From Thuidium tamariscinum (taxonomy: Eukaryota; Streptophyta; Bryopsida; Hypnales; Thuidiaceae): a stretch of DNA of 64,000 nucleotides. The stretch is taken from positions 372,001 through 436,000 of the forward strand of contig OX344750.2 in the NCBI GenBank assembly GCA_947034885.2. Direction: 5' to 3'. Each line of letters opens with the position of its first letter. Positions within the stretch are counted from its first letter, which is position 1. The notes beneath the pieces are model-generated. The model had not been told where the DNA came from, made no database searches, and saw nothing but the letters and a program-made list of their open reading frames with translations. Positions 4,495 to 21,030 of the stretch are shown here, in pieces. The position numbers were made by a program, and so were the translations under genes.

Positions 4495-4804
4495 GACCGT
4501 AAAGAATGCGCTTGACGCAAAATCCTTCTACAACCTACACACCTTATAGAAAAATTATTTCCACAACATATAACATACAGTCTTCAGGTTAGGAGCCCAG
4601 TGAATAATACTACTTACACATCCTATGCTGAAGGTGAAAGGTACCTACCCCGACCTTATAAAATGATGAGCACAAAATTGAATCTGAAGCTAAGATAAAT
4701 ATGTGCACATAAAACCTAAGGAATCCTCAAATGTTCACACTCACTAAGCCTCAAATCTCAAGAAATAATCATTTCCAAGTCAAACATTATATAGAAAACA
4801 CATA

Positions 4805-4870
4805 GGGTACAGCACCCTATTAGTGCGCAAGCACCTATTATTGCGCACTTGGAGCCCTATTATTACGCAC
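4805..4870 (+). repeat. left terminal repeat and subterminal GCGCA motifs
   Basis: Left inverted end of the pogo-like element. Three closely spaced copies of a motif around TATTATTGCGCACTT follow the terminal GGGTA. Open reading frames drawn across this stretch on the minus strand have no family features and are treated as chance. Confidence 0.7.
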
Positions 4871-5582
4871 TTGAAACCCTAACCCTTGATTTCTAGGTGA
4901 GGTGAGGGTTGCCCCGTCGTTGCAGGAAGAGCTTACTCCCGCCCCGCGTGCTTCTGCACGCTCTTCGTAGCCATGGACAGGAGTGGCTTCTTGCAGCATC
5001 AGGTCGAACGTGGTGGGATGCAATTGCTCGTAGTGGGCGTCGATATGTCCCACTGATTCTCTCTCCCCGTGAGAAAACTCGTGCATCGACATAATGCTTG
5101 CCATCGAAATCTCGTTTGGTGGAATTCGAGTCTCCTTGGATCGGAGCTTTGTTTGAATTGGTCTGGTGCAGAAAAAACTCTCTGTATGAAGGAGAATGCA
5201 GTGGATTGCTAATGCAGACACTATGATTGGGATTGGTGAAGAGCCTGCTAGAATTGAATGGGAGCTTTGTGTGAAAGAGAAACTCTCTCCAGGAGGCCAC
5301 GGTTGAGTGAGTTCTGTGCAGGAGATTCTTCTTTGTTTGGAATTGGTGAGTCTCAAACAGGAAGTTGTGCGTCGCGGGCATTAAAGCTTACCGTAAATAG
5401 TTGCTGAATGTTTAGCTTCTTTGCTTGCCTGCCACGTGCTTTTCATCTGGAATCATAAATTGTTGCGTGGCCAAAAATTATTAGTCTGTTGTCAAGCGTA
5501 ATACACTGCCTCAACGTTGGAATTCCGTCTCCCTCTTCGTTTTCTAGGGCACCAATGATCGAGGTCTTTCAGTTTCCTTTTC

Positions 5583-6158
5583 CGACTCTCATTTTCAAAT
5601 TTTTGATCTGCAGGAAAGAAAATGTGGACAAATGATTGAGGAACGGCAACTGATTTGCAGTTTCTTACGTTCTCGCTACGCTGGAATCATTACTTAGGGT
5701 TTGAATATCGACGGTGAAACACAGCGCAACTTTGTTGTTCGGATGGCGTTTGGACTGCGGGCATTCCTATCTGGAGTTAATGGTGTGACCGAGCCTTAGT
5801 TTTACTAGGTAAGAGCCGTCTCGCATTGTCCTAATTGAAGTCTAGGGTGGTCAGCATACCCTAAACTTTGTTTGGTTTTGTTTGTTTGCAGGTACTCACC
5901 TCCAGTTCAACAACTTTCTCTACTGGGGTTTGATATTGAGGAGGAGGACCTCGTTTCTTTCTACAACACACATCCAGACGTGAGCATTTTCCAACTTTCA
6001 CTTTCAATTTTTTGATCTACAGGAAAGAAAATGTGAACGAATGATTGAGGATCGACAACTGTTTTGCATTTTCTTGCGTTCTTGCTACGCTGGAGTCATT
6101 GCTTAGGGTTTGAGTATCGACAATGAACCACAGCGGGCAACTTTGCTGTTCGGATGGG
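5583..6158 (+). repeat. 165-bp direct duplication in the pogo element 5' region
   Basis: Segments at about 5583-5747 and 5992-6158 are near-copies, roughly 85 percent by eye. Both contain TTTTGATCT, GCAGGAAAGAAAATG or a close variant, then TTAGGGTTTGA, and both end near GTTCGGATGG. They lie upstream of the transposase start, in what is likely promoter, 5' UTR or 5'-intron sequence. No coding sense is evident, although each copy contains an acceptor-like CAG before GAAAG. Confidence 0.7.
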
Positions 6159-6985
6159 CACGCGTGTGCTGAATTGAATCCGGAGACGATCAGTGTTAGT
6201 TTTCTCACCTTCTTTGGCTTCTTGATGCATTTCCTGGCTGGTGTGAATGTTAGATTCCCTAATTTTCTTCCAAGTCGAAGAGATCGCTACCAACTCCAGA
6301 AGCAGAACTCTGTCAAGGAGAGCTCAATCATCGGTCATGGAGGACTCGGTTGTGCCGTTGTTACCCAAGGAGAGCTTGTCGTTTTTCAACCCTTTGACAG
6401 GATTGTGTGAAGCTCTCCCACCGTTGCTCCATCCCATAAATCCTGATCTTGATCAACACTCGATCGAACATTGGAGTACAAAATGCATTCGATTCTGTTT
6501 TGTTTCCATAGCCTTCTTCTCATATGCTTCGACAGTCTTTTGCATCACTTGCATATACATGACGTATAAAATTGTTTCAGTAGGATTTCTTGTTTGGTGT
6601 TATCTATGAATGAGCAGAACATGAGTACTAATGCCGGCTCACTTAACAAACTCTTTTGTTACGTTTTATTACAGGAGCACGCTCTGGATGTTGAAGCTAT
6701 TGAATGGGGCCATATCTAGCATTTGGAGCTCATATCAAATCTTAAGATAAAATTGAAGATTGTGAAGCTAGCTTACGTTTTGATCTCAATAAGCACCTCA
6801 ACGCAGCTTTGACGGAAGCAACGGATTTATATGTAGATTTCCAGGTACATGTTTTTGAAAAGATATCTTATGTTGATGGAATTCATGTTTCTTGCTTTGC
6901 CAATGTCTTTACAAAGATTACATTACTTGATTAATGAATTGTGTGCTAATGGTTTGTGTTCATGTATGTAATTGTGTAGTTCTAC

Positions 6986-9003
6986 ATGGCCTCAGAGATT
7001 CCAAAATGGGGTGCAACCCGTCCCCGCAACTCTCAACCTATCATCCCCAAGGCAAAACCTAACCGAGGCAAGGGAGAGAGGGCAAAATGGACCATAGAAG
7101 CCATGCAGTTGGCATTGGAAGACATCTCAGTGGGGAGAAAAAAACTGAGAGAGGCTGCCAGGTATTATTGCATTCCATAATCTTCTATAAGAGCATGGAA
7201 GAGTGGGAAGGTCTCCTCTAGAAAAAGTGGTCCACCCACTGTACTAACAACTGAGGAGGAAAATGCTGTAGTTGAGTGGTGTGAGGAAAGGCAAAGGGTG
7301 GCTCATTGTGTCTCCTTAACATTGCTGAGATGCAAAGTACAGCAGATTTGTGAGGGTAGGTCAACACCATTTACTAATGGAATTCCAGGAAAACATTGGT
7401 GGAAATCCTTCTGCAAAAGGCATCCTAAACTAGTATTGAGGAGGCCAGAGAGTTTAGATGTCCAAAGGGCTAGGAGCCTCTCTAAGGAGGCATGTGAGAG
7501 GTTTTATAAGTTTTTAGGAGAGACTTACTCTGCTGGAGGCTATCCACCATCTCGAATTTGGAATGTCGATGAAACAGGGTTGTCTGCTGCCCAAAAAAAT
7601 GGTAGTGTGAAGGTGATTGGAGTTAAAGGCTCAAGAAATGTGATGAGTACTACATCTGGAAACAGAAAGTGGATGACAGTTATGGTTTGCTCAAACACAT
7701 TGGGCTACTCTATACCTAGTCTTTACATTTTCACAGGAGTGAGGGTAAGAGAGGATTATGTGGGTGATTGTGAGCAGGGAGCAAAGATGGCAATGCAAGA
7801 AAACGGATGGATCATTGAAGAAATTTTTTTAGGATGGTTGGACCATTTTAGAAAGAGTGTTCCTGGAGGAGTCTCACAAGAGTTCAAACACTTGCTCCTA
7901 GTTGATGGACACAAGACTCACATGACCCTTGCTGTGGTTACAAAAGCTGCTTGTTTGGGAATTGACATTGCCCTCTTACCTCCCCATACTACTTATCGAC
8001 TCCAGCCACTAGATGTAGCTGTATTCAAGTCTTTCAAGACTAATTTCTTAGCTGTGAGGGACAGATTCATAGCTAGAAATCCATCATGGGCTAATGGTGA
8101 TTTCAGTAGGAAGTCCTTAGCAGCCTTAGCTTCTGAGGCACTACAACAGGCTTTAAGTGTTAGCAACATACAATCAGGTTTTCAAAAAACCGGCATCTAT
8201 CCCTTAAATCCTGAAGCTATGGTTTTGGAGTATAGCCCAAGTACTCTGTTTGAAGAACATGTTGATAATGATACTTGCTCTGACCATGATGAGGAAGATC
8301 CTTGTACAAGCTTCAATGAAGATTCAATGCCTGCATCAGCCATGATTGCTTCGATTGTGTATCCTTCAAGGTAATAGTCCAGACTTTCTTTATTGCAATT
8401 GATTAAGTCAATGCTTTTGCTACTAAAGGTTTAGTGGTTTACAATTGTTGAAATTAGACTAAGGATTTTTTTTTCCAGGGATGATCTACATTCTGTGGAG
8501 ATACTAGGATCAGACATTGAAAGACTTAATCCAGGAGTATTCTTAAATGATACTATCATAGATTTTTACATCAAGTACCTTCAAAGAGATGAAGCTTTTT
8601 CTTCAAAGGAGAAAGAAAGATTTCATTTCTTTAATAGTTTCTTCTACAAGAAAGTATCTGAAGTGTTGGTGAGTGAACAAGGAAATTTCTTGAGCTTGAG
8701 GAAGTGGACCAGAGGAACTAAAATGTTCACCAAGGAATACATATTTGTACCCATTCACAAAAGGTATGTGCTATTCTATTGTGGAATGTGTTATTTATTT
8801 GTTTATTCATGTGCAATTAGTCATTGAATTTAAAACAATTATTTTGTTGTAGTCTAGTAGTCTAGAATTCCAAACCTTGTTATATGCTCCTTGTCTCTTC
8901 AGAATTTGTGCAGGCAGCTTGTTGACTTCTTCTCAACTTGTGAGAAACTCCAGTGGGCAAACAGTAGATTGAATTATCAAGGTACTTTGCAACATCAAGG
9001 GAC

Positions 9004-9042
<39 letters not shown>

Positions 9043-10815
9043 TTACCATAATAATCTTTCATTCTTTTTTGAAGGCTGTAATTTGATTTCAAATGTTTGT
9101 TAATTTCAGCTTACATTGGAGTCTTGCCATAATTTGCTTTCTTATGTATGAACCGGATTGTGGGTCTACATGCAACTGGTGCATCCTTCATATGGATTCT
9201 ATGATTGATGGCCATGACAGTGAGGAGATATTTGGACTTCTAAAGAGGTAAAGACTTTTCCTTCTTCACATGGCATAAATCTACATTATGGCTTTTGGTT
9301 CATTGTTTGTTTGGATCATTTTTTAATGTTGGATTGTTTTGTTTGGTAGGTACTTAGTAGAAGAATGGAATTACAGCATTGTATCAAGAGAGTATGAAGA
9401 TGTGGATGGCATTGATACCACACAAGAAGTAACATTTGACAACATTCATCACAAAAGAGTCCAGGTATGTGAAGATTTGTTGAATTTTGCTACTTAGGGA
9501 AATGAACTCCATTGTAATTTGAATTGAGATTAGAAACAATACATTTTACTTAAGATTATCATTGCACCACTCTTCTCATCCATGTTTGATACTCTTTACT
9601 CTAATCTTTGCTAATAATGTTGTATTAATTGGTGATGCAGGTTCCATTGCAAGAAAATGGCTTTGATTGTGGAGTATTCATGCTTTACTATATCAAGAAA
9701 TTTGTTGAAGATGCACCAAAGATGATGAAGATTTGTGATCTAGAAACTGATTACTCTATACTTGGGTGCAATTGGTTTCAACCTTTTGAAGCATCACTCT
9801 TGAGAAACACCATTCAGCAAGAGCTTCAATTTCTATTTGATGTTGAAACACAAGCATGTATGTGTCTAGCTCTTAGGTTTTGAAATTTCTTGGTATTGTT
9901 TAAGTGATTGTTTTTATTCCATTGTTGATATATTTGCTTACTTTCAGCGTGGTGTGTGGTTTTCTCATCTACTAATTCTTGTTCTAATTCATTTGCTTGG
10001 CTGAAGTTAATGAAATTTCTTGATATTGAAGTTTGTAACTAAATGGCTAGTTTTATGAGGACTTAGATTTTGACTTACATAAGTTATTAAATTGCAGGGC
10101 AATCTCTAGAGGGCAGTGCTGGTCAAGGAATCTCAGAAATTGGAGAAGCTATGCCTTCCCATGTTGGATTGGTAAATTCAAATCTTGTTGTGAAGAAAGT
10201 ATGTGCATCTCATATGAAAGGTACGTGATTGTTTGTTTTCCATTGTTGATATATTTGCTTGTTTTCAATGTGTTGTGTCAATCTTGTTTCTCAATGCTTC
10301 TGTTTTGTACTAAAATGCAATTACCAGGACTGTTTATATTAAACTATTGTTTAGGTAATGAATGAATCACAAGATAGTTTGGAATATGAAGCTGAACTTT
10401 GGTTTTCTCATCAACTAATTGTTGGTCTAATAAATTTGCTTAGCTGATGTCATTGTCTTGTTATTTTACAGGACTGAAATCAGATGCTTTGTCAAAGATT
10501 CTAGATGTTCCACGGTACAAAGTACCACAGCGGGCACCTAACCTTGCACGTGAAATTGCTACCCGTGCTTGCATCACATCAGATGAATTTAGAGCTCTTG
10601 AGGAACAGAAGCAGCATGATGATGCTAAGAAGAAAAGGTTGGTGCAGGTGAGAAAGGAACAGAGAGAAGCATCTAAGAAGGCAAAAGCTTTAGTAGCTGC
10701 ATTGAAGAAAGGGAAAGTTGTGAAAAAGCAACAGAAGACATCATTTCCTGTCCAAGTTACATTGCAGGATGAGAAGAAGACAAAGAAGTCTTTTGTTAGT
10801 CCTTTGCTTAAATAA
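6986..10815 (+). CDS. pogo-like DDE transposase fused to a ULP2-type SUMO protease
   Basis: Seven exons fit GT-AG rules and phase: 6986-8370, 8479-8763, 9110-9247, 9350-9464, 9641-9857, 10098-10220, 10472-10815, about 868 codons. Residues 29-80 resemble a Psq-type helix-turn-helix (LREAARYYCIP, then an SGKV stretch). The DDE domain shows WNVDETG (D195), LLVDGHKTH (D307) and LQPLDV (D343), with 35 residues between the last two aspartates, then FQKTGIYPLNPEAM as in Tigger/jerky proteins. Residues 463-715 form a C48 cysteine protease: LNDTIIDFYIKYL, LHWSLAIICF (H559), ILHMDSM (D586) and LQENGFDCGVF (Q645, C651). All catalytic residues are present, and the sequence is closest to plant ULP2 and animal SENP6/7. 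The lysine-rich tail (ITSDEFRALEEQK) resembles the normal pogo C-terminus, so the protease sits inside the transposase. A TAA at 7178-7180 interrupts exon 1 in frame. An additional 5' exon ending near 6843 is possible. Confidence 0.85.
9003..9044 (+). repeat. (TTTA)n microsatellite
   Basis: About ten uninterrupted copies of TTTA inside the second intron of the transposase-protease gene. Confidence 0.95.
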
Positions 10816-11177
10816 AAATGAGCTATTTTGAAAACTTTGTTTCAGTGTTGGAGTGTGGATGACATTCTATTGTTGTGAAGTGATTGTTGTAGGTGAATTA
10901 CAGTTATTGTCATTCTCACTAGCAGGGTGAATTTGTGTGGAATTTTCAATTTCTAAGAGAATGTGCAAGAATAGGATGTAATGCGCAATGATAGGGTCTG
11001 GGGCAATTGGGATGCCCAAAATACACCCATATATAGTTTTCCAGTTTTTGGTGAAACAAAATTCCAAAATTGAATTTTGATAATTGAGATTTACAATAGA
11101 TTTAATTTTCTAGGTGGGTTTCAATTTATGGCTGCATCGGTGCCCTTCACCGTCAAATTTGCAACAGTGAACTTAAG

Positions 11178-11202
11178 TGCGCAATGATGGGGCTCTCTAC
11201 CC
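11178..11202 (-). repeat. right terminal repeat of the pogo-like element
   Basis: Reads GTGCGCAATGATGGGGCTC and then TCTACCC before the flanking TA, the inverted counterpart of the left end. Another inverted GCGCA motif lies about 200 bp further in, near 10980. Confidence 0.7.
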
Positions 11203-14110
11203 TACCTGTAATCTTTAAAAGAAACTTATTAAGAGTCGACTTGAACACTGCATTCTGAGATCAACAGCGGCACCAACGCCTTCCTTTTCAATCGCTAAGG
11301 GAAATAAATCTGCATTGCAAATAACATGATTGACGGACAGTTGCGAAGACTACAACCTCAATAATAATAGCCAGCACTGGAGGTTCACATTAATGCATAC
11401 TCCCATGTCCATCGTCCGGGATAAAAACTTGACCTCAAACATACACTTCTTGAAGAAAGGATATACATAATATAAGCCAAAAAAATTTCCACTCGTAAGC
11501 AACACCGCATCAGGCTAGAACTCGAATCCGGCCTGAGTACTGATCGGATCCTACGATCACCGACACGAAGATGCACAACATTCTTGACAAGGCCGGCCAT
11601 GACTGAAACTAATCAAATTCCAAACTGCAAATAAATTTGAAAGTTCCGTCAAGTGTTCAAGTCACAAAGTCAGCTGAAAAATAGCAGGAAATTGTAATAG
11701 GAGCCTTTGCCTGTCGACTAAAATGGCTCACAAAATCTTACGTTAATTCCTCAAGTTCGATTCTGGAGAAATCTTAATCCCTTCCAACGTTGATGACTTT
11801 CTATCTGACATGAAACTTGTAAGTTTAAACTCTAGTTAACCTTACTCCGTAGTTGATTAACTCCCTTCTAAAGTCAAGAGATACTTATAAGAGACTATTC
11901 GATTCTGACCAATCTTTGGGAGATTTTGGTTTCAGGGTTGCACTTTCATTGACTTAGGGCTGCAATTTGTTGGATTCTCTTGCCAAAGAACGTGATGATC
12001 ATAAATTGCTATGGAAGTACACATACAAGAATTCAGAAATGTAATAATATTTCACTTAATACAAAGCTAGAGATTGAAGAACTGAAAAGGGGCGTTCTTT
12101 GAGAATTTATTGAAATCATGCTGTAGCCATTGCGTCCTATATTTGCCTAATCGTTGAGATTGAGAATCTTTCATCCAAATGAGTATTTGGTTTAATTGCA
12201 TCTTATTAGTTTAGAGGTAGAGACTCTAATGTGCTGAAATTACTTACAAAAGTTAGGAACATGATCAAATCTTTATCATAGAAATCAGACATTGGGTTCC
12301 ATTTCCCACAGCAACCTTTTCCCCAAACCACAAGAAAACCCTGAAACCAAAATCGCCCAAAGATGTTCCATTTCCCACAGCAACCCTGAAGCCAAGAGAT
12401 ACTTATAACCCAAATCTCCCAAAGATGTTCCATTATCCACAGCAACCTTTTCCAAAACCACAAGAAAACCGACACTGGAGTCCTATAACTTGTAGTACAG
12501 AAAGTACACACACCTTCAAGAATCGGCAGATACAAAAAGCTTCCACATAAGATAGAAATCTTGAAAGCAAGACAAAGATCAGCATCGAAAAGACTAACCA
12601 AAGTTCAAGGGAAGAGGGCTTCGGCTGACAGCTGCGAATGAATCTCAACCCCGCGTCTTGCTTCTGCAGTTTAGTGTCGTCTTCCTTTCACGTTTTCGAA
12701 AAGTAGCTCCACTTCTTCAGTCTTCAGGAACAAGTCCGAAGTCTTCAGGAACAAGTCTAGCATTCACCGCTAAATCTCTGAGCCTGGCAATCGAAAGCCA
12801 CTCGGATTGTATCCCTCCAAGCATCCATAAAATCTGCGGTCTAGTTCCTGAAATAGCCAACAGCAAAATAGCATGTAGACACGATTAAACCTCTTTACAG
12901 CTGCGAAGCTCTCCTAGCCGCCCCACAAAAGCGGACAAATTTGGAAGCCGTCAGTTGCAGGGGCTTTCAGCACATACCTCTCTTCTCCGATTAGTATGCA
13001 ATTATTCCTGAGTGATCCAGGTACAAGGACTGCTTTTCGGTGCACCACGGCGCCATGCAATAGAATCTGAAGCCACGGTATGGGACATGCATGCTGGACA
13101 TCGTCTAAAATTGCTTCCTGAGCCTTTTACCCACGAGTCTCTAGAACTTCCACATCTAAGTCGACTGCAAAGCATATTAACCCTACCGAGCTTGTAGGAT
13201 GTGTGAAGTTGGAATTCTGCATCCCACTCTCTTTAACACTGATAACTTCTCTGCAACAAAACTATTTTGGGGAACTTAGAATCTTTATAATGTAACCATG
13301 CCTTAGTATTGAATTTTGGATTCAATGCAATTGAAAAAGCATCCATAAGTTCAGGAACGCCGCTCCTGATTCAATAGTTGATAATCCAGCTTCAGCTTGT
13401 GATTAGGGGACAACCTAATATAGAAATCGGAAATTACATGAGTTGCATATATTCATTTCACTTTGAGAAAAAAATACTTACCGAGACTTCGCAGTTCAAA
13501 TCTGAGGCGGGAGCCGTGCAGGGAGCTGTGCAGGGAGCCGTGGCAGGAACTATGGCGGAGCTTTTATCTACATGCCATCCAAACGCATCTGCTTTGTGCA
13601 TTCTGCAGTTTCCTTTGCGATGCTACTCTAGTTCACAAATCCAGTAGTTTGTTCCCGAGTTCGTGAAAATCAAAATAAGTCGCAAAAAGATGAGGACGGT
13701 GCGTGGAGAGACGAAGTGACCACCATCATAACCTTTCCCTCTGTACGTACACACCAAACTGAGGTGATGGTTAACAGTTTCATTAGTTTTAAATGTGACT
13801 CATCATGACAGTAATTGTTGAATAGTACTTTCTAGACTTGCTCTCAAAACGTCACATCAAAGTTTCTAGTTGTGGAACCTACTCCCACACTTACAGCTGT
13901 GTTCTCTGCAGGCTTTCATTAGGTTCGGAACTTCGGAGAGCCCCAGTTTAAAGCCGAACAGCAGTGAAGATAACGGCGATCGGAATGGTTTTCGGTATGA
14001 ATCTCCTCTGCATTCTCAAAACTGATTTTGTATTATCTGTTTTTGCATTTACGTAGGGCCTTCATTAGGTTTTAAGTAGGCAAGAGTCTTCAGAATTGTG
14101 TCTCGATAGA
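11203..14110. other. no gene recognised; mixed unique sequence
   Basis: Between the pogo-like element and the next exon model I see no gene I can support. There are short open frames, none with family motifs. The stretch contains a local tandem repeat (12297-12470) and a short GTGCAGGGAGC duplication near 13515. It may be intron, UTR or spacer of the surrounding CACTA-derived element. Confidence 0.5.
12297..12470 (+). repeat. tandem repeat, about 62-69 bp unit, 2.5 copies
   Basis: Copies start near 12297, 12366 and 12428 with TTCCATTTCCCACAGCAAC or TTCCATTATCCACAGCAAC. The first and third share CAAACCACAAGAAAACC-like sequence, and the second and third are preceded by CCCAAAGATG. Confidence 0.8.
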
Positions 14111-15599: not shown

Positions 15600-18500
15600 A
15601 TGAGGCTTCGAAGACATGGCGCTGCTTATAATATAGAGCGTGCAATTGTTGCGAGACTGGGTTTGCCTGAGTACCTCTGTGCATGTCAAAAATGTCGAGG
15701 GGGTAGGGTACGCAGGGTGGAAACAGTTGCTCGTCATCACAGGGAACACGGTCGAGACCCTTTCTTGCCTTATCATGTGTTGGTACGTGACCTAGATGAC
15801 CCTTGTATTTAATAGTGATAACCTTTAGTAATTTGATGACATATTGTATAAAAGGAATGGAATTGTACACATGTGAATGTGATGCTATACTAGAATACGA
15901 AATCAAAGAACGTGATGATCAATTGTAGACTATACTGGGAATTTAATCAAAACTCTATACATACCCACAAATGTTTAAGCTTTTCTTCAATAACAGATGT
16001 GTTTTTTTGCAGTCAATTGATGGAAGCAATATCCAACGCCCTAGCTCTCCAAGAGACTATTCGGAGGAAAACTATATCCAAAGAGAGAATTTTCGTGACG
16101 TGCCGTTGTTTGTGTGGCCGCAGAGGACTGAAGTGAATGTAAACGATTTGGTGCATGATGCATACGAGAAGGCTGATGAGATGCATGCACAAGCCGAACA
16201 AATGCCAGACATGCCACCTGTTGAGGTGGATGTAGAAATGGGCTCCGAATTGCACATGGATGACGGTGACATGGAAGAACTTCTACGCGAATCTACAGTT
16301 GCAGTTTACGAGAATTGCCCTGTCAATCGCTTGCAAGCAAGCATCATTCTCTTGAACATGTGTAACTTGTATGGTGTTCCTAACACATTCTTGGATGAAC
16401 TGCTACTGTTTCTTGCCGGGGACTTGCTATCCAGATCAAATTGTTTGCCTCGGAGTAGTTATGAAACAAAGAGGATGGTAATGCGGATGGGATTGGAGCA
16501 CAAAGCCATACACTGCTGCCCACTAGGGCATATCCTGTATGAAGGTGAAGAAAATCAGGACCTTCTTCAATGTCCAACTTGTCAGGAACCACGTTATATA
16601 ATTGGCTCAAATCAAGTTCCTCGCAAGGTCTTGAGGTATTTTCCTCTGATACCCCGTTTACAACGTCTGTATCGTTGCCCTGAAATAGCCAAGTTAATGA
16701 AATGGCATGCGTCAAATCACTCAAAAGACAGGCTCATGCGCTCTGTCATTGACAGTCCTCAATGGGCCTCAGTAGCCACAATAGATCCCTCTTTCGCAAC
16801 AAAAGACACGAATGTGTATATGGGCCTTGTTGGAGATGGAGTGAATCCATTTGGCAATCAGTTTGTGAAACACAGTTCATGGCCACTTCTGGTTGTTTTG
16901 TACAATCTTCCTCCTTGGTTGGCAACCCGCAAATTTTTCATCTCTTTATCAATGATTATACCAGGTACGAGTTAATATCCACGCACTTGTACTAAACATA
17001 CCTTCAAGAGTTTTAGATTGCAACATAACTTATTGAATATAAAAGTCAGAGTTGAACCACCTACATATAGCATTGTTATATTAGTGAAGAGTGAATCTTC
17101 ATTCTTTTTAGTGGTCTTCCATTGTACTGTATTCACATCACTCTTACTATTTGAAAACCTTTTTGTGGTGTAGGTGAAAAGGCTCCATCTTCGCAAGCAT
17201 TTGATATTTTCCTTCGTCCACTCTTGAATGACTTCAAGAGACTTTGGGCAGGTGTACCTGCAATGGATTCTTCCATATCAGAAGGTATGCGCCACTTCAA
17301 TCTCAGAGGAATTTTATTGTGGACTGTGAACGACTTCCCGGCTTACGGGCTAATTTCGGGTCAACAAGTTAAAGGCTACAAGGGCTGCCCTGTCTGCACT
17401 ACTGAAACATACTCCGAGCATTCTGGGGTACTAAAGAAGATGTTGTATTTAGGACATCGTCGATTCTTGCCAAGTGAGCACCGATTTTGCCGTGCTAAAG
17501 TAGCATTCAATGGAGACCAAGAATGGCGTGAACCTCCACAACGACCCAGAGGAGTAGAAATTTTAAGACATGCTCAAGAGAGGGAATTGTATATCTCAAC
17601 GGGAGGCGCTGTAGATGGAGAGACAGATCCATTGAAGGCACATGGTGTAAAGCGAGTCAGTGTACTCTTTGAATTACCGTATTGGGAGGTTTGATTCTAA
17701 ACTAAAAGTTCCTGGTGCATTGCAATTGGTAGTTTTTTCTTTTTATAGATGTAAATTAACATTTAAGATACCCAAAAAATATAATAATTAATGCAAATGT
17801 AGTCTTGCAAAATGTAAATTTGGAATATAATTAAAATTTGGAATATTAAAAGAAATTGGAAGTTATTGTTATGTCATGCGATAGGACATCATTGAATTGC
17901 ATCACGGAATATACTACATATTAGTCTCCAAATTTTTTTGGTTGTAGTCCCTTTGTAAGTTTACGAAAATAGCGTATTCATAGTAGTGATAGTAAAAGGG
18001 AATGAATATTTGTTCAAGAAATCAGAGTATTTTGTTAAGGGCTGTCCAATTGCGTTAGTGTTCATTTGGTGGATTTTAATATAGTCCTTCATTTTGGGAT
18101 TGCCTATTTATTGAAAACACTATGGTATATTCTGGCACTCATATATTAATGTTTGCCTGAAATCATGTTAATTGATTGATGTAGGGTATTTCTGATTCTA
18201 TGTTTGATGTGATTGAACATTCTAAAGATGACATTGAAACCTGTTTTTGGACCAGAAGGAATGTCATATTGTTTGGATTACAGAGTATATAAACCTTTTT
18301 TATTAAGTCTTTGAGGTAGCTAATATAAGAAAACATATTTGTACTTGTGCAGAAACTACCTGTTCGCCATTTGGTGGATCCAATGCACACCGAAAAAAAT
18401 GTTTGTGAAAACATTTTGAAAACTTTACTTGGAGAGAAAGACAAGCCATCCACGCGTGCAGATATGCAAGTGAAGGGAATCAGGGAGCACTTGTGGCTAA

Positions 18501-21030
18501 AGCCCTTGCCAAATAATCCTAACAAATTGTTCATGCCCGATGCTCCTTACGTGTTGTCCAAAACTGATCGGTCAACATTTTTGCTCAATTTGGGGAGCAT
18601 TAAAACTCCTACAGGGTACACTTCAAATCTCAAAAATCGCATTCAAGATGGAAAAATCAGCGGGTTGAAGTCCCATGACTACCACATATTGATGCAACAA
18701 CTTCTCCCTGTGAGCTTACGAGGTCTTGGAGACGCTGGAGTGACAAGCACAGTCATTTGTTTATGTAGACTTTATCGGAAATTGTGCGCAAAGGTCATTG
18801 ATTCCAACAACAAGGAAGACATGATGTCTGATGTAGCTGAGGTTCTTTCATGCATGGAGAAGGATTTCCCTCCATGTTTTTTTGACGTGATGGTTCATTT
18901 GACAGTGCATCTTGTAGAGGAATTGTTCATCTGTGGACCTATCCATACATGTTGGATGTATCCCTTTGAACGCTATTTCAAGGGATTGAAGGGTTTTGTA
19001 CGTAATTTAGCCAAACCAGAGGGAAGCATCGCTCAAGGTTATCAAGTGGAGGAAGCCCTTGGATTTATCACTGAGTACCTAGCTCCCTATGACACGACAA
19101 CTCGACGGGTTTGGGATGACAAGGAAGATCCGACAATGACCGATGAAATTTTGGAGGGGAAAGGCAAGCCACGGAAGTTGTCAGAGCAACTACGGCTGTG
19201 GCTGCACAACTTCGTGTGCGACAACGCAGAGGCCTTGGACCCATATCGCCAGTAAGTTTTTTTGTTAACATGGTATATTTCTCAAATCATGTGGAGTATT
19301 GTCTGTAATTATGGTGCCAATGTGTTTCTCATACAAAGACAACACTCTTAGTCTAATAATGTAGGTTGTCAGTTTTGGCATCTAGGAATCTTATAGTCAT
19401 ATTTGTAAGTACATAGTAAGTGTATAGCCATTTTGTTGAATTTATTCTGTCTTTGTCTCAATAGAAAACTTAGTTTTGCATTGCAATAATGGTCTAAATC
19501 TTGATAGATACAATTAAATCTGAGTTTTAGAGTCTTTAGACTGAAATTTATAGAACAATGATATCCTAAACGTGAATCCAAATATAACTACTATGAAATA
19601 AAAGGATTCAAAATAATCTTAGGTTTAGGAATAGGTTAGGCTAGAAGTCTAGAAGTAGACATCATATAATGAATAGATTAGGGTACTCATTGCCTATTTT
19701 GTGAATTCCTTTTTTTTTATAAAAGCGATTGAATATTAATATGCCACCGAATCGTTTTATTCTTTTGTAGTAGAAAAATAGAATTGCAAAGTGGATTTTG
19801 ATTTATTAATCTTGCAAAAATTACTACTACTATAGAAGAGTTTCAATGAAAATTACCTTTCAGTTTTGGAATGTGAAAGGAAACAAATTGTGGTAGAAGT
19901 TAAGTCTTTGGACAGTACGGACCGACGTCAAATAATGGACATATGCTGACAAAGTTTGAATATGTTTTACCATTAGTTATTTGTGTGTTGTTTTATAAAT
20001 TTTTAAGATAACGAAGGGTCAATCTTCCAACATGCTCATGTTTTGGTTTTGTACATCATGAGTTGGGGAACTACAAAGTGAATCACAAAACACATATTGA
20101 TTTGGTTTGTTTGGTGTTCATGTATTTAATATAAGGAGGTACGAGGCATTCTGTGTGGACCGGATAGCTGCACGCGTAAGGTTTCGTCGTGAGCATCGAC
20201 GGCGTCGCCGTCGACATGTTGAACCTTTTCCGGCCGAGCTATGTGAACCTTTGGCCTTTCCTCTATGGCTGGAATCAGTGGTGCAGAGTGAGTTGAGTGA
20301 TGGAAACATGCAGCGTCCTTCAAAGGACGTGATTAACCTCTCTAAGCTACCATCTTTGCATGCTACAAAATACAGAAGCATGTGGGCTTTTGGAAACCAT
20401 TTGAGGGTTGCCACTATTGAGTCCCACTTACGGACTTGTGACTCTGGAGTGGCGGCTACCTTCCGTCGCCCTTGCCGTTCTGGTTTGGGAGATGTCAATC
20501 ATGTTATTGCAGCCATTGAATATGTGGGACATGTAGAAGAAATTGTAGAACTTAACTATGGTGGATTATGTGTAGTGGTCCTCATTTGTTCATGGGTAAG
20601 GGCCAACTACCGTGGCAATACTGCCACTGTGAAAAAAGATAAATGGGGTTTCAGTATTGCTAACTTTCAGAGGATGATACCACTGGGTCAAGATTCCTTT
20701 GCTTTTCTAATGAACATTGACCAAGTTTTTTTCTGCGATTCTCATGAAGAACCAGGATGGAGAGTAATACTTCGCAAGGAAGTGAGGGGCAGGAGGATTT
20801 TGGGCAATGTCGGTGCTGGTGAAGTGGGAGGTTTGTTTCAGGTAGGTCGAGACATCGATCATGTTGTCCTCCAGCCTCCTACCATCATTCCTGAACAAAA
20901 TCCTGAAATCCCAAGAACTAGCAGGCGATTGAGAAGGGACGAGGTTTTGGCTGAGTGGATACATGAGCCTGACACAGTTTACGATGTAGATGTGGGTGCT
21001 TCAGGGTCATCGTCATCAGAGGAAGATTGA
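15600..21030 (+). CDS. CACTA transposase, TNP2 family, apparently intact
   Basis: Five exons in matching phase: 15600-15782, 16013-16964, 17174-17688, 18353-19251, 20136-21030, giving 1,147 residues with no internal stop. The start is the first ATG after an in-frame TAG. Residues 27-32 (CACQKC) with a following ARHHREHG resemble the zinc-binding N-terminal transposase-associated domain. The Tnp2 core shows FPLIPRLQRLY, VGDGVNPFG (about residue 335), YNLPPWL, WTVNDFPAYG (about 427), GCPVC, FELPYWE, then VDPMHTEKNVCENIL (about 557). Next come LPVSLRG and CWMYPFERYFKGLKGFVRN, the DUF4218 region. The last exon holds the usual C-terminal domain (KWGFSIANFQRMI, QVFFCDSHEEPGW) and ends in an acidic serine tail. 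Such proteins bind CACTA ends and cut and rejoin DNA in the nucleus. Known family, high confidence; activity is not shown. Confidence 0.9.

Follow-up and report, generated by a model that had tools for sequence, protein, structure and literature searches.

A pogo-type transposon of the moss Thuidium tamariscinum with a predicted ULP2-type SUMO protease between the DDE domain and the tail of its transposase

Ginger1 elements carry an Ulp1 domain within the transposase (Bao et al. 2010, PMC2836005). Like the moss gene described here, they combine a DDE transposase and Ulp1 (pfam02902) in one protein, often with introns, but the Ginger1 transposase is of the Gypsy-integrase type with a zinc finger and a GPY/F motif, its Ulp1 domain is C-terminal, and the Ulp1-bearing families in Table 1 of that paper are all from Hydra; the moss gene has a pogo-type DDE_1 domain with a helix-turn-helix (HTH) and places the protease between the DDE domain and the tail. 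Kaonashi/KIU of non-TIR MULEs (Vandal) offers a second likeness, as a plant transposon with a transduplicated and long-kept ULP domain (PMC13317346, PMC6117577). In a MULE, however, KIU is one of three coding genes, whereas the moss protease lies inside a pogo transposase in an element with a TA target site and short terminal inverted repeats (TIRs), and MULE-borne ULP-like loci (KIU) are considered unlikely to act on SUMO (PMC6117577). SUMO is known to regulate HMGXB4, a host factor of Sleeping Beauty transposition (PMC10138897). The pogo superfamily (Lemi, Tigger, Passer, Fot and others) shares with the moss element an HTH and DDxD transposase and TIRs (PMC7386202, PMC7325037); the words 'protease' and 'peptidase' have no occurrence in the main text of these two papers. 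For land plants, one survey describes just Lemi in 23 eudicots and the other describes pogo in dicots and Selaginella (PMC7325037, PMC7386202).

The window, by which we mean the whole analysed stretch of 64,000 nucleotides, contains a gene that an initial annotation had described as a pogo-like transposase with a ULP2-type protease built into it. What is new here is the placing of a ULP2-type protease between DDE domain and tail of a pogo element; an Ulp1-carrying transposase as such is known, from Ginger1. We met no report of a pogo–C48 fusion in the open literature surveyed on pogo and Kaonashi elements, Ulp1, SUMO, mosses and fusions, most subscription papers lying outside that scope. Proteins with both PF03184 and PF02902 numbered 0 of 120 among the matches listed (477 passed, 7990 candidates scored), 0 of 103 in a second match list and 0 of 120 listed (126 passed) in a third.

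Gene model, domains and insertion point

Seven exons with GT..AG borders (Table 1) join in one phase, as first proposed, into a single 868-codon reading frame with one internal stop. Splice sites were chosen from 4608 GT-AG combinations, 32 of which leave just one internal stop, and the model uses canonical-looking sites. Its internal stop prevents the window copy from making the full protein, and this copy is probably dead.

A Pfam search of the joined frame, with X at the stop, returned HTH_psq at residues 38–77 (E 1.3e-3, under its curated cut-off), HTH_Tnp_Tc5 at 89–151 (E 1.8e-7), DDE_1 at 230–356 (E 4e-17) and Peptidase_C48 at 483–670 (E 6e-29), in the order claimed beforehand, and nothing beyond these four families at E up to 1. 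The same families were obtained when five pieces were run separately, HTH_psq then at E 0.04 only; the tail piece run separately gave just a chance-level match (E 0.18). The gene and its surroundings present a DDE_1 catalytic domain with an upstream HTH (Psq / CENPB-Tc5) and TIRs with a TA target site, a site typical of pogo, together with the ULP/SENP (C48) domain and its His, Asp, Gln and Cys. All residues named in the initial annotation were correct: the DDE triad D195, D307 and D343 has DD35D spacing, inside the pogo range of DD29-56D (PMC7386202), and the C48 catalytic set is complete with H559, D586, Q645 and C651. The ULP2-type label also held, the best solved relative of the protease being SENP7 (E 1.2e-26), a ULP2-class enzyme (PMC6117577), and many plant matches being named ubiquitin-like-specific protease 2A or 2B.

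Other identities were rejected. For Ginger1, there was no Gypsy-integrase-type transposase match in Pfam at E up to 1; for a MULE or Kaonashi element, there was no MULE domain and the ends consist of a TA site and GGGTA. CACTA elements have a Transposase_21 (tnp2) transposase and CACTA-type ends, and the fused gene has no Transposase_21. Pieces of a separate CACTA-type element do lie in the window at 15947–21027 (+), with two open frames that match Transposase_21, together with DUF4218 and with DUF4216 below threshold; a passenger origin from this element at 15.9–21 kb was discarded as well, the fused gene being without tnp2 and its ends being different.

Table 1. Coordinates of the element and of the fused gene in the window
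Feature	Position	Strand	Remarks
TA target site, left end	4803..4804	.	sequence and other copies
Left terminal inverted repeat, starts GGGTA	4805..4829	+	other copies begin exactly here, with differing flanks
Left subterminal repeats, core TGCGCACTT	4813..4872	-	scored copies 4833-4850 and 4855-4872; weaker third near 4813
5' region of element	4830..6985	+	without coding match to L039, L041, L043
Exon 1	6986..8370	+	HTH_psq, HTH_Tnp_Tc5, DDE domain, linker, first protease residues (IVYPSR)
In-frame stop TAA of window copy	7178..7180	+	some relatives lack it
Exon 2	8479..8763	+	C48 part 1
Exon 3	9110..9247	+	C48, catalytic His and Asp
Exon 4	9350..9464	+	C48
Exon 5	9641..9857	+	C48, catalytic Gln and Cys
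Exon 6	10098..10220	+	post-protease linker; without counterpart in L039
Exon 7	10472..10815	+	lysine-rich pogo tail; L039 and P0124 have homologous tails
Right subterminal repeat	10979..10996	+	core TGCGCACTT type
Right terminal inverted repeat including subterminal repeat 11175-11192	11175..11202	-	
TA target site, right end	11203..11204	.	sequence and other copies

The claim that the protease sits inside the transposase rather than in a neighbouring gene was borne out at both borders. On the upstream side, the protease residues IVYPSR already lie in transposase exon 1, and homology to a cellular protease gene continues across the 8370/8479 junction. On the downstream side, both the window and L039, a second fused locus of the same genome, carry the pogo tail after the protease; in P0124, an unfused relative of 663 aa with DDE, linker and the same tail, the tail comes after the DDE region. 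The window tail matches that of L039 at E 3e-8 and that of P0124 at E 3e-6 (small database). We found no sibling with its protease elsewhere, P0124 simply having none. Over exon 1, a further protein, P0121 (423 aa; 5 members; one contig of 89.8 kb), shares 93% identity, and its last residues are likewise IVYPSR; it should come from another assembly, as no such match is among the own-genome (G000) matches listed.

Element boundaries and related copies in the genome

The gene belongs to a 6.4-kb element, at 4803–11204, that extends beyond what the initial annotation had described; that annotation had overlooked the larger element as well as the donor gene and the siblings within the same genome. 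The left and right ends match at 14 of 18 positions, a score reached by 20 of 100 shuffles and not significant alone, and the element ends therefore rest on other copies. When the own genome, of 363.2 Mb in 19 contigs, was searched at the DNA level (30 candidates scored, with copy counts as lower bounds), the window gave the one full-length copy, alongside at least four copies of 1.8 kb. Four of these short copies are 94–96% identical in the matching parts, starting at query position 1 and ending at 6402. In two of them, L012/L022 and L013/L025, both ends abut TA and the flanks differ, L013/L025 having one changed base at the ends; the ends of the remaining two are given by match coordinates only. 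The ends of three further copies (L047, L048 and L050) also abut TA in differing flanks. Two 1.8-kb copies at C9:22277877-22279664 and C9:22280857-22282644 are 1.2 kb apart in opposite orientation and are perhaps not separate insertion events. The 5' region of the window element contains a 149-bp direct repeat (87%) at 5578–5726 and 5987–6135. Frames of 4803–7000 had no tblastn match to L039, L041 or L043 at E up to 1, so our model places no coding exon before 6986, even though L039 seems to require one. A domesticated host gene was rejected as an identity, the window copy having a stop and siblings with TA ends lying in several different flanks.

A C48 protein search of the own genome yielded 30 matches, which were grouped by eye into 20 loci, one of them the cellular gene L042. 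A DDE_1 match (from a set of 150 matches among 303 candidates) occurs at most 2 kb away from five of the 20, namely the window, L039, L040, L041 and L043; with 150 DDE sites in 363 Mb, simple arithmetic predicts that ~0.0006 of randomly placed loci would fall up to 3 kb downstream of such a site and on its strand. Three more loci, L044, L045 and L046, are remnants that keep the C48 end and the tail. A Pfam search for C48 across the whole genome lacked the sensitivity to pick up intron-split genes, giving 10 matches from which L039 was missing. The genome also has 11 further C48 loci at 36–42% to the window (C4:4.605, 6.620, 9.028, 9.071, 10.737, 10.759, 10.785, 17.300 and 23.100 Mb; C5:12.341; C7:22.754), none adjoining a listed DDE_1 match; the one at C4:6.620 sits in a 762-aa open frame.

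The same domain order without a stop occurs at L039, where 826 codons encode HTH, DDE, C48 and tail. This frame opens at a likely acceptor site without Met, its first Met lying ~50 residues in; lacking a start codon, the L039 model therefore seems to miss an upstream exon. L039 and the window are 49% identical over a long match that includes intron read-through, and 65% identical over 359 transposase residues. The ends of L039, of the type TA followed by GGGTA, are common to L040 (with one changed base), L044 and L045, with differing flanks. An internal deletion in L040 takes out the later protease exons and the tail, and L041 is decayed with every part present and in order. At L043, the transposase is 35–41% identical and falls into two pieces, with one frame change and with a break near the end of the DDE domain; the last DDE stretch runs through a linker into C48 in one intronless frame, without the first protease intron, with one stop within C48, a changed Asp position and a weak tail match (E 0.24). 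Judged across these loci, the fusion order is more than chance, as it recurs elsewhere in the genome with shared introns.

In a transposase tree of 28 rows, built with database matches and no named Lemi or Tigger references, the window and P0121 were sister to L039, P0122 and P0123 (100/98), joined next by P0124 (97/92) and then by L043 (97/94). This position of P0124 between L043 and the window/L039 pair means that the protease was lost in P0124 or else gained separately in L043. Given also that L043 is without the first intron and has a changed Asp, a single capture for all fused loci is therefore not proven. In total, the own genome has at least 104 transposase matches (344 candidates), which apart from the window are 34–65% identical, most of them 34–45%. 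Many of these matches lie in open frames of 550–1040 aa, for example L005 (C2:5.611 Mb). The longest forward frames of L001–L008 had no C48 match at E up to 1, but in L002, L003, L006, L007 and L008 that frame (98–149 aa) was not the transposase, which leaves this negative with little weight. Another pogo family, P0224 from Taxus chinensis (883 aa, 31 members), is 43% identical in the DDE region and has no C48 in its precomputed domains.

Source of the protease and constraint on the fusion

The closest proteins to the window C48 domain among the matches listed were the moss ULP-like proteins P0002 and P0005 (Ceratodon) and P0004 and P0006 (Physcomitrium), at 46–52% identity. L042 is the own-genome counterpart of these ULP2-like cellular genes, with 4 of 8 stretches matching P0004 at 64–81% and the rest at 34–44%. 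The fusion resembles all of them in C48 and L042 also in intron positions and phases; unlike the fusion, the moss ULP2-like genes lack a transposase and encode their own long N-terminus. The window's four protease introns equal introns of L042 in alignment column and phase, and five introns of L039 match L042 in position and phase, the L042 introns having been modelled with canonical sites picked among alternatives; L042 has two introns beyond those of the window and L039. In C48 trees of 27 and 28 rows, the window and L039 grouped with L042 and P0002–P0005 at 100/100. The two were sisters at 81/84 in the first tree and not resolved in the second, with a long-branch warning, and the L043 branch was too long to place. 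The simplest reading of these comparisons is that genomic DNA of a cellular ULP2-like gene, introns included, was copied into the transposase gene; we rejected retro-capture from mRNA because donor and element have introns in common.

We compared the window with L039 by pN and pS in place of dN/dS because synonymous sites were saturated (pS 0.75–0.90 across the parts). Presupposing one capture common to the two copies, pN was 0.25 for HTH and DDE (387 codons; pS 0.78), 0.33 for C48 (222 codons; pS 0.78; pN/pS 0.42) and 0.35 for the tail (83 codons). The four catalytic C48 residues are kept in both copies, as is the frame on both sides of C48. On these values, transposase and protease both remain constrained.

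Interpretation of the fusion and its wider meaning

We assign a probability of roughly 0.7 to the reading that this is a pogo transposon whose ancestor captured a genomic ULP2-type piece, that it encodes a single spliced HTH-DDE-C48-tail protein, and that the protease aids mobility or evasion of silencing. An ancestral pogo-superfamily cut-and-paste transposon would have copied part of a ULP2-type SUMO-protease gene with its introns, and the piece would have entered the transposase gene after the DDE domain and ahead of the lysine-rich tail, so placing both enzymes in one predicted protein. The HTH probably brings this protein to the subterminal repeats, where the protease fused to it would strip SUMO from the transposase itself, from its partners or from silencing factors present at the element, with more mobility or less silencing as the outcome. 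The element ends, the fused frame, the recurrence in diverged siblings, the donor gene and the constraint on both enzymes are established at the level of sequence; the protease probably helps the element to move or to escape silencing.

Two alternatives concern the protease's role. It could serve purely as an anti-silencing module, acting on chromatin at the element via the transposase HTH and dispensable for transposition chemistry, a possibility that we take seriously without favouring it: VANC and KIU of Vandal MULEs are thought to act as such modules, KIU-carrying Vandals with an Ulp1 domain direct hypomethylation of their own family (PMC13317346), and the subterminal repeats could be docking sites, but the same source gives the function of the Ulp1 domain within KIU elements as unknown. 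That the protease is instead inert, a piece of host sequence captured as a passenger and by chance still in frame, seems improbable; although host-piece capture is frequent in plant transposons (PMC13317346) and both the window copy and L043 have stops, such a passenger fits poorly with a C48 pN/pS of 0.42 over 222 codons at saturated pS, and with catalytic residues and flanking frame that both the window and L039 have kept.

The remaining alternatives concern how the gene came about. We give very little weight to two neighbouring genes or a gene-model artefact, with a transposase that ends early and a ULP pseudogene downstream. The exon 1 reading frame does reach a stop shortly past its donor site, the gene model is a prediction from genomic sequence, and no fused protein is among the database matches listed; against this stand IVYPSR in exon 1, the pogo tail after the protease, the frame and phase kept in L039 despite saturated divergence, and the intronless border of L043. 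Repeated capture, in which the L043 lineage gained its ULP domain separately from the window and L039 at the same place in the transposase, comes close to an even bet while falling short of one. It would account for the branching of the protease-less P0124 between L043 and window/L039 (97/92, 97/94) and for the donor intron missing from L043, but protease loss in P0124 and intron loss in L043 are equally possible, and the C48 domain of L043 is unplaceable.

Returning to the capture reading, its capture step is clearly visible, from intron-containing genomic DNA to the linker preceding the tail. The donor, a stop-free fused sibling, decayed siblings and deletion derivatives occur together in one genome, with an unfused relative from elsewhere, and therefore capture, upkeep and role are directly testable; a single catalytic-Cys mutation in one protein would part transposition chemistry from deSUMOylation. 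The moss genome is also rich in pogo, compared to earlier surveys with little land-plant pogo (PMC7325037, PMC7386202). Unrelated transposons, the MULEs and Ginger1, acquired SUMO-protease domains too. More speculatively, and on balance doubtful to us, moss pogo elements may on two or more occasions have welded a ULP2-type protease into one and the same point of the transposase, with the HTH as the address; if so, a cis-delivered deSUMOylase would be a recurrent solution among cut-and-paste elements.
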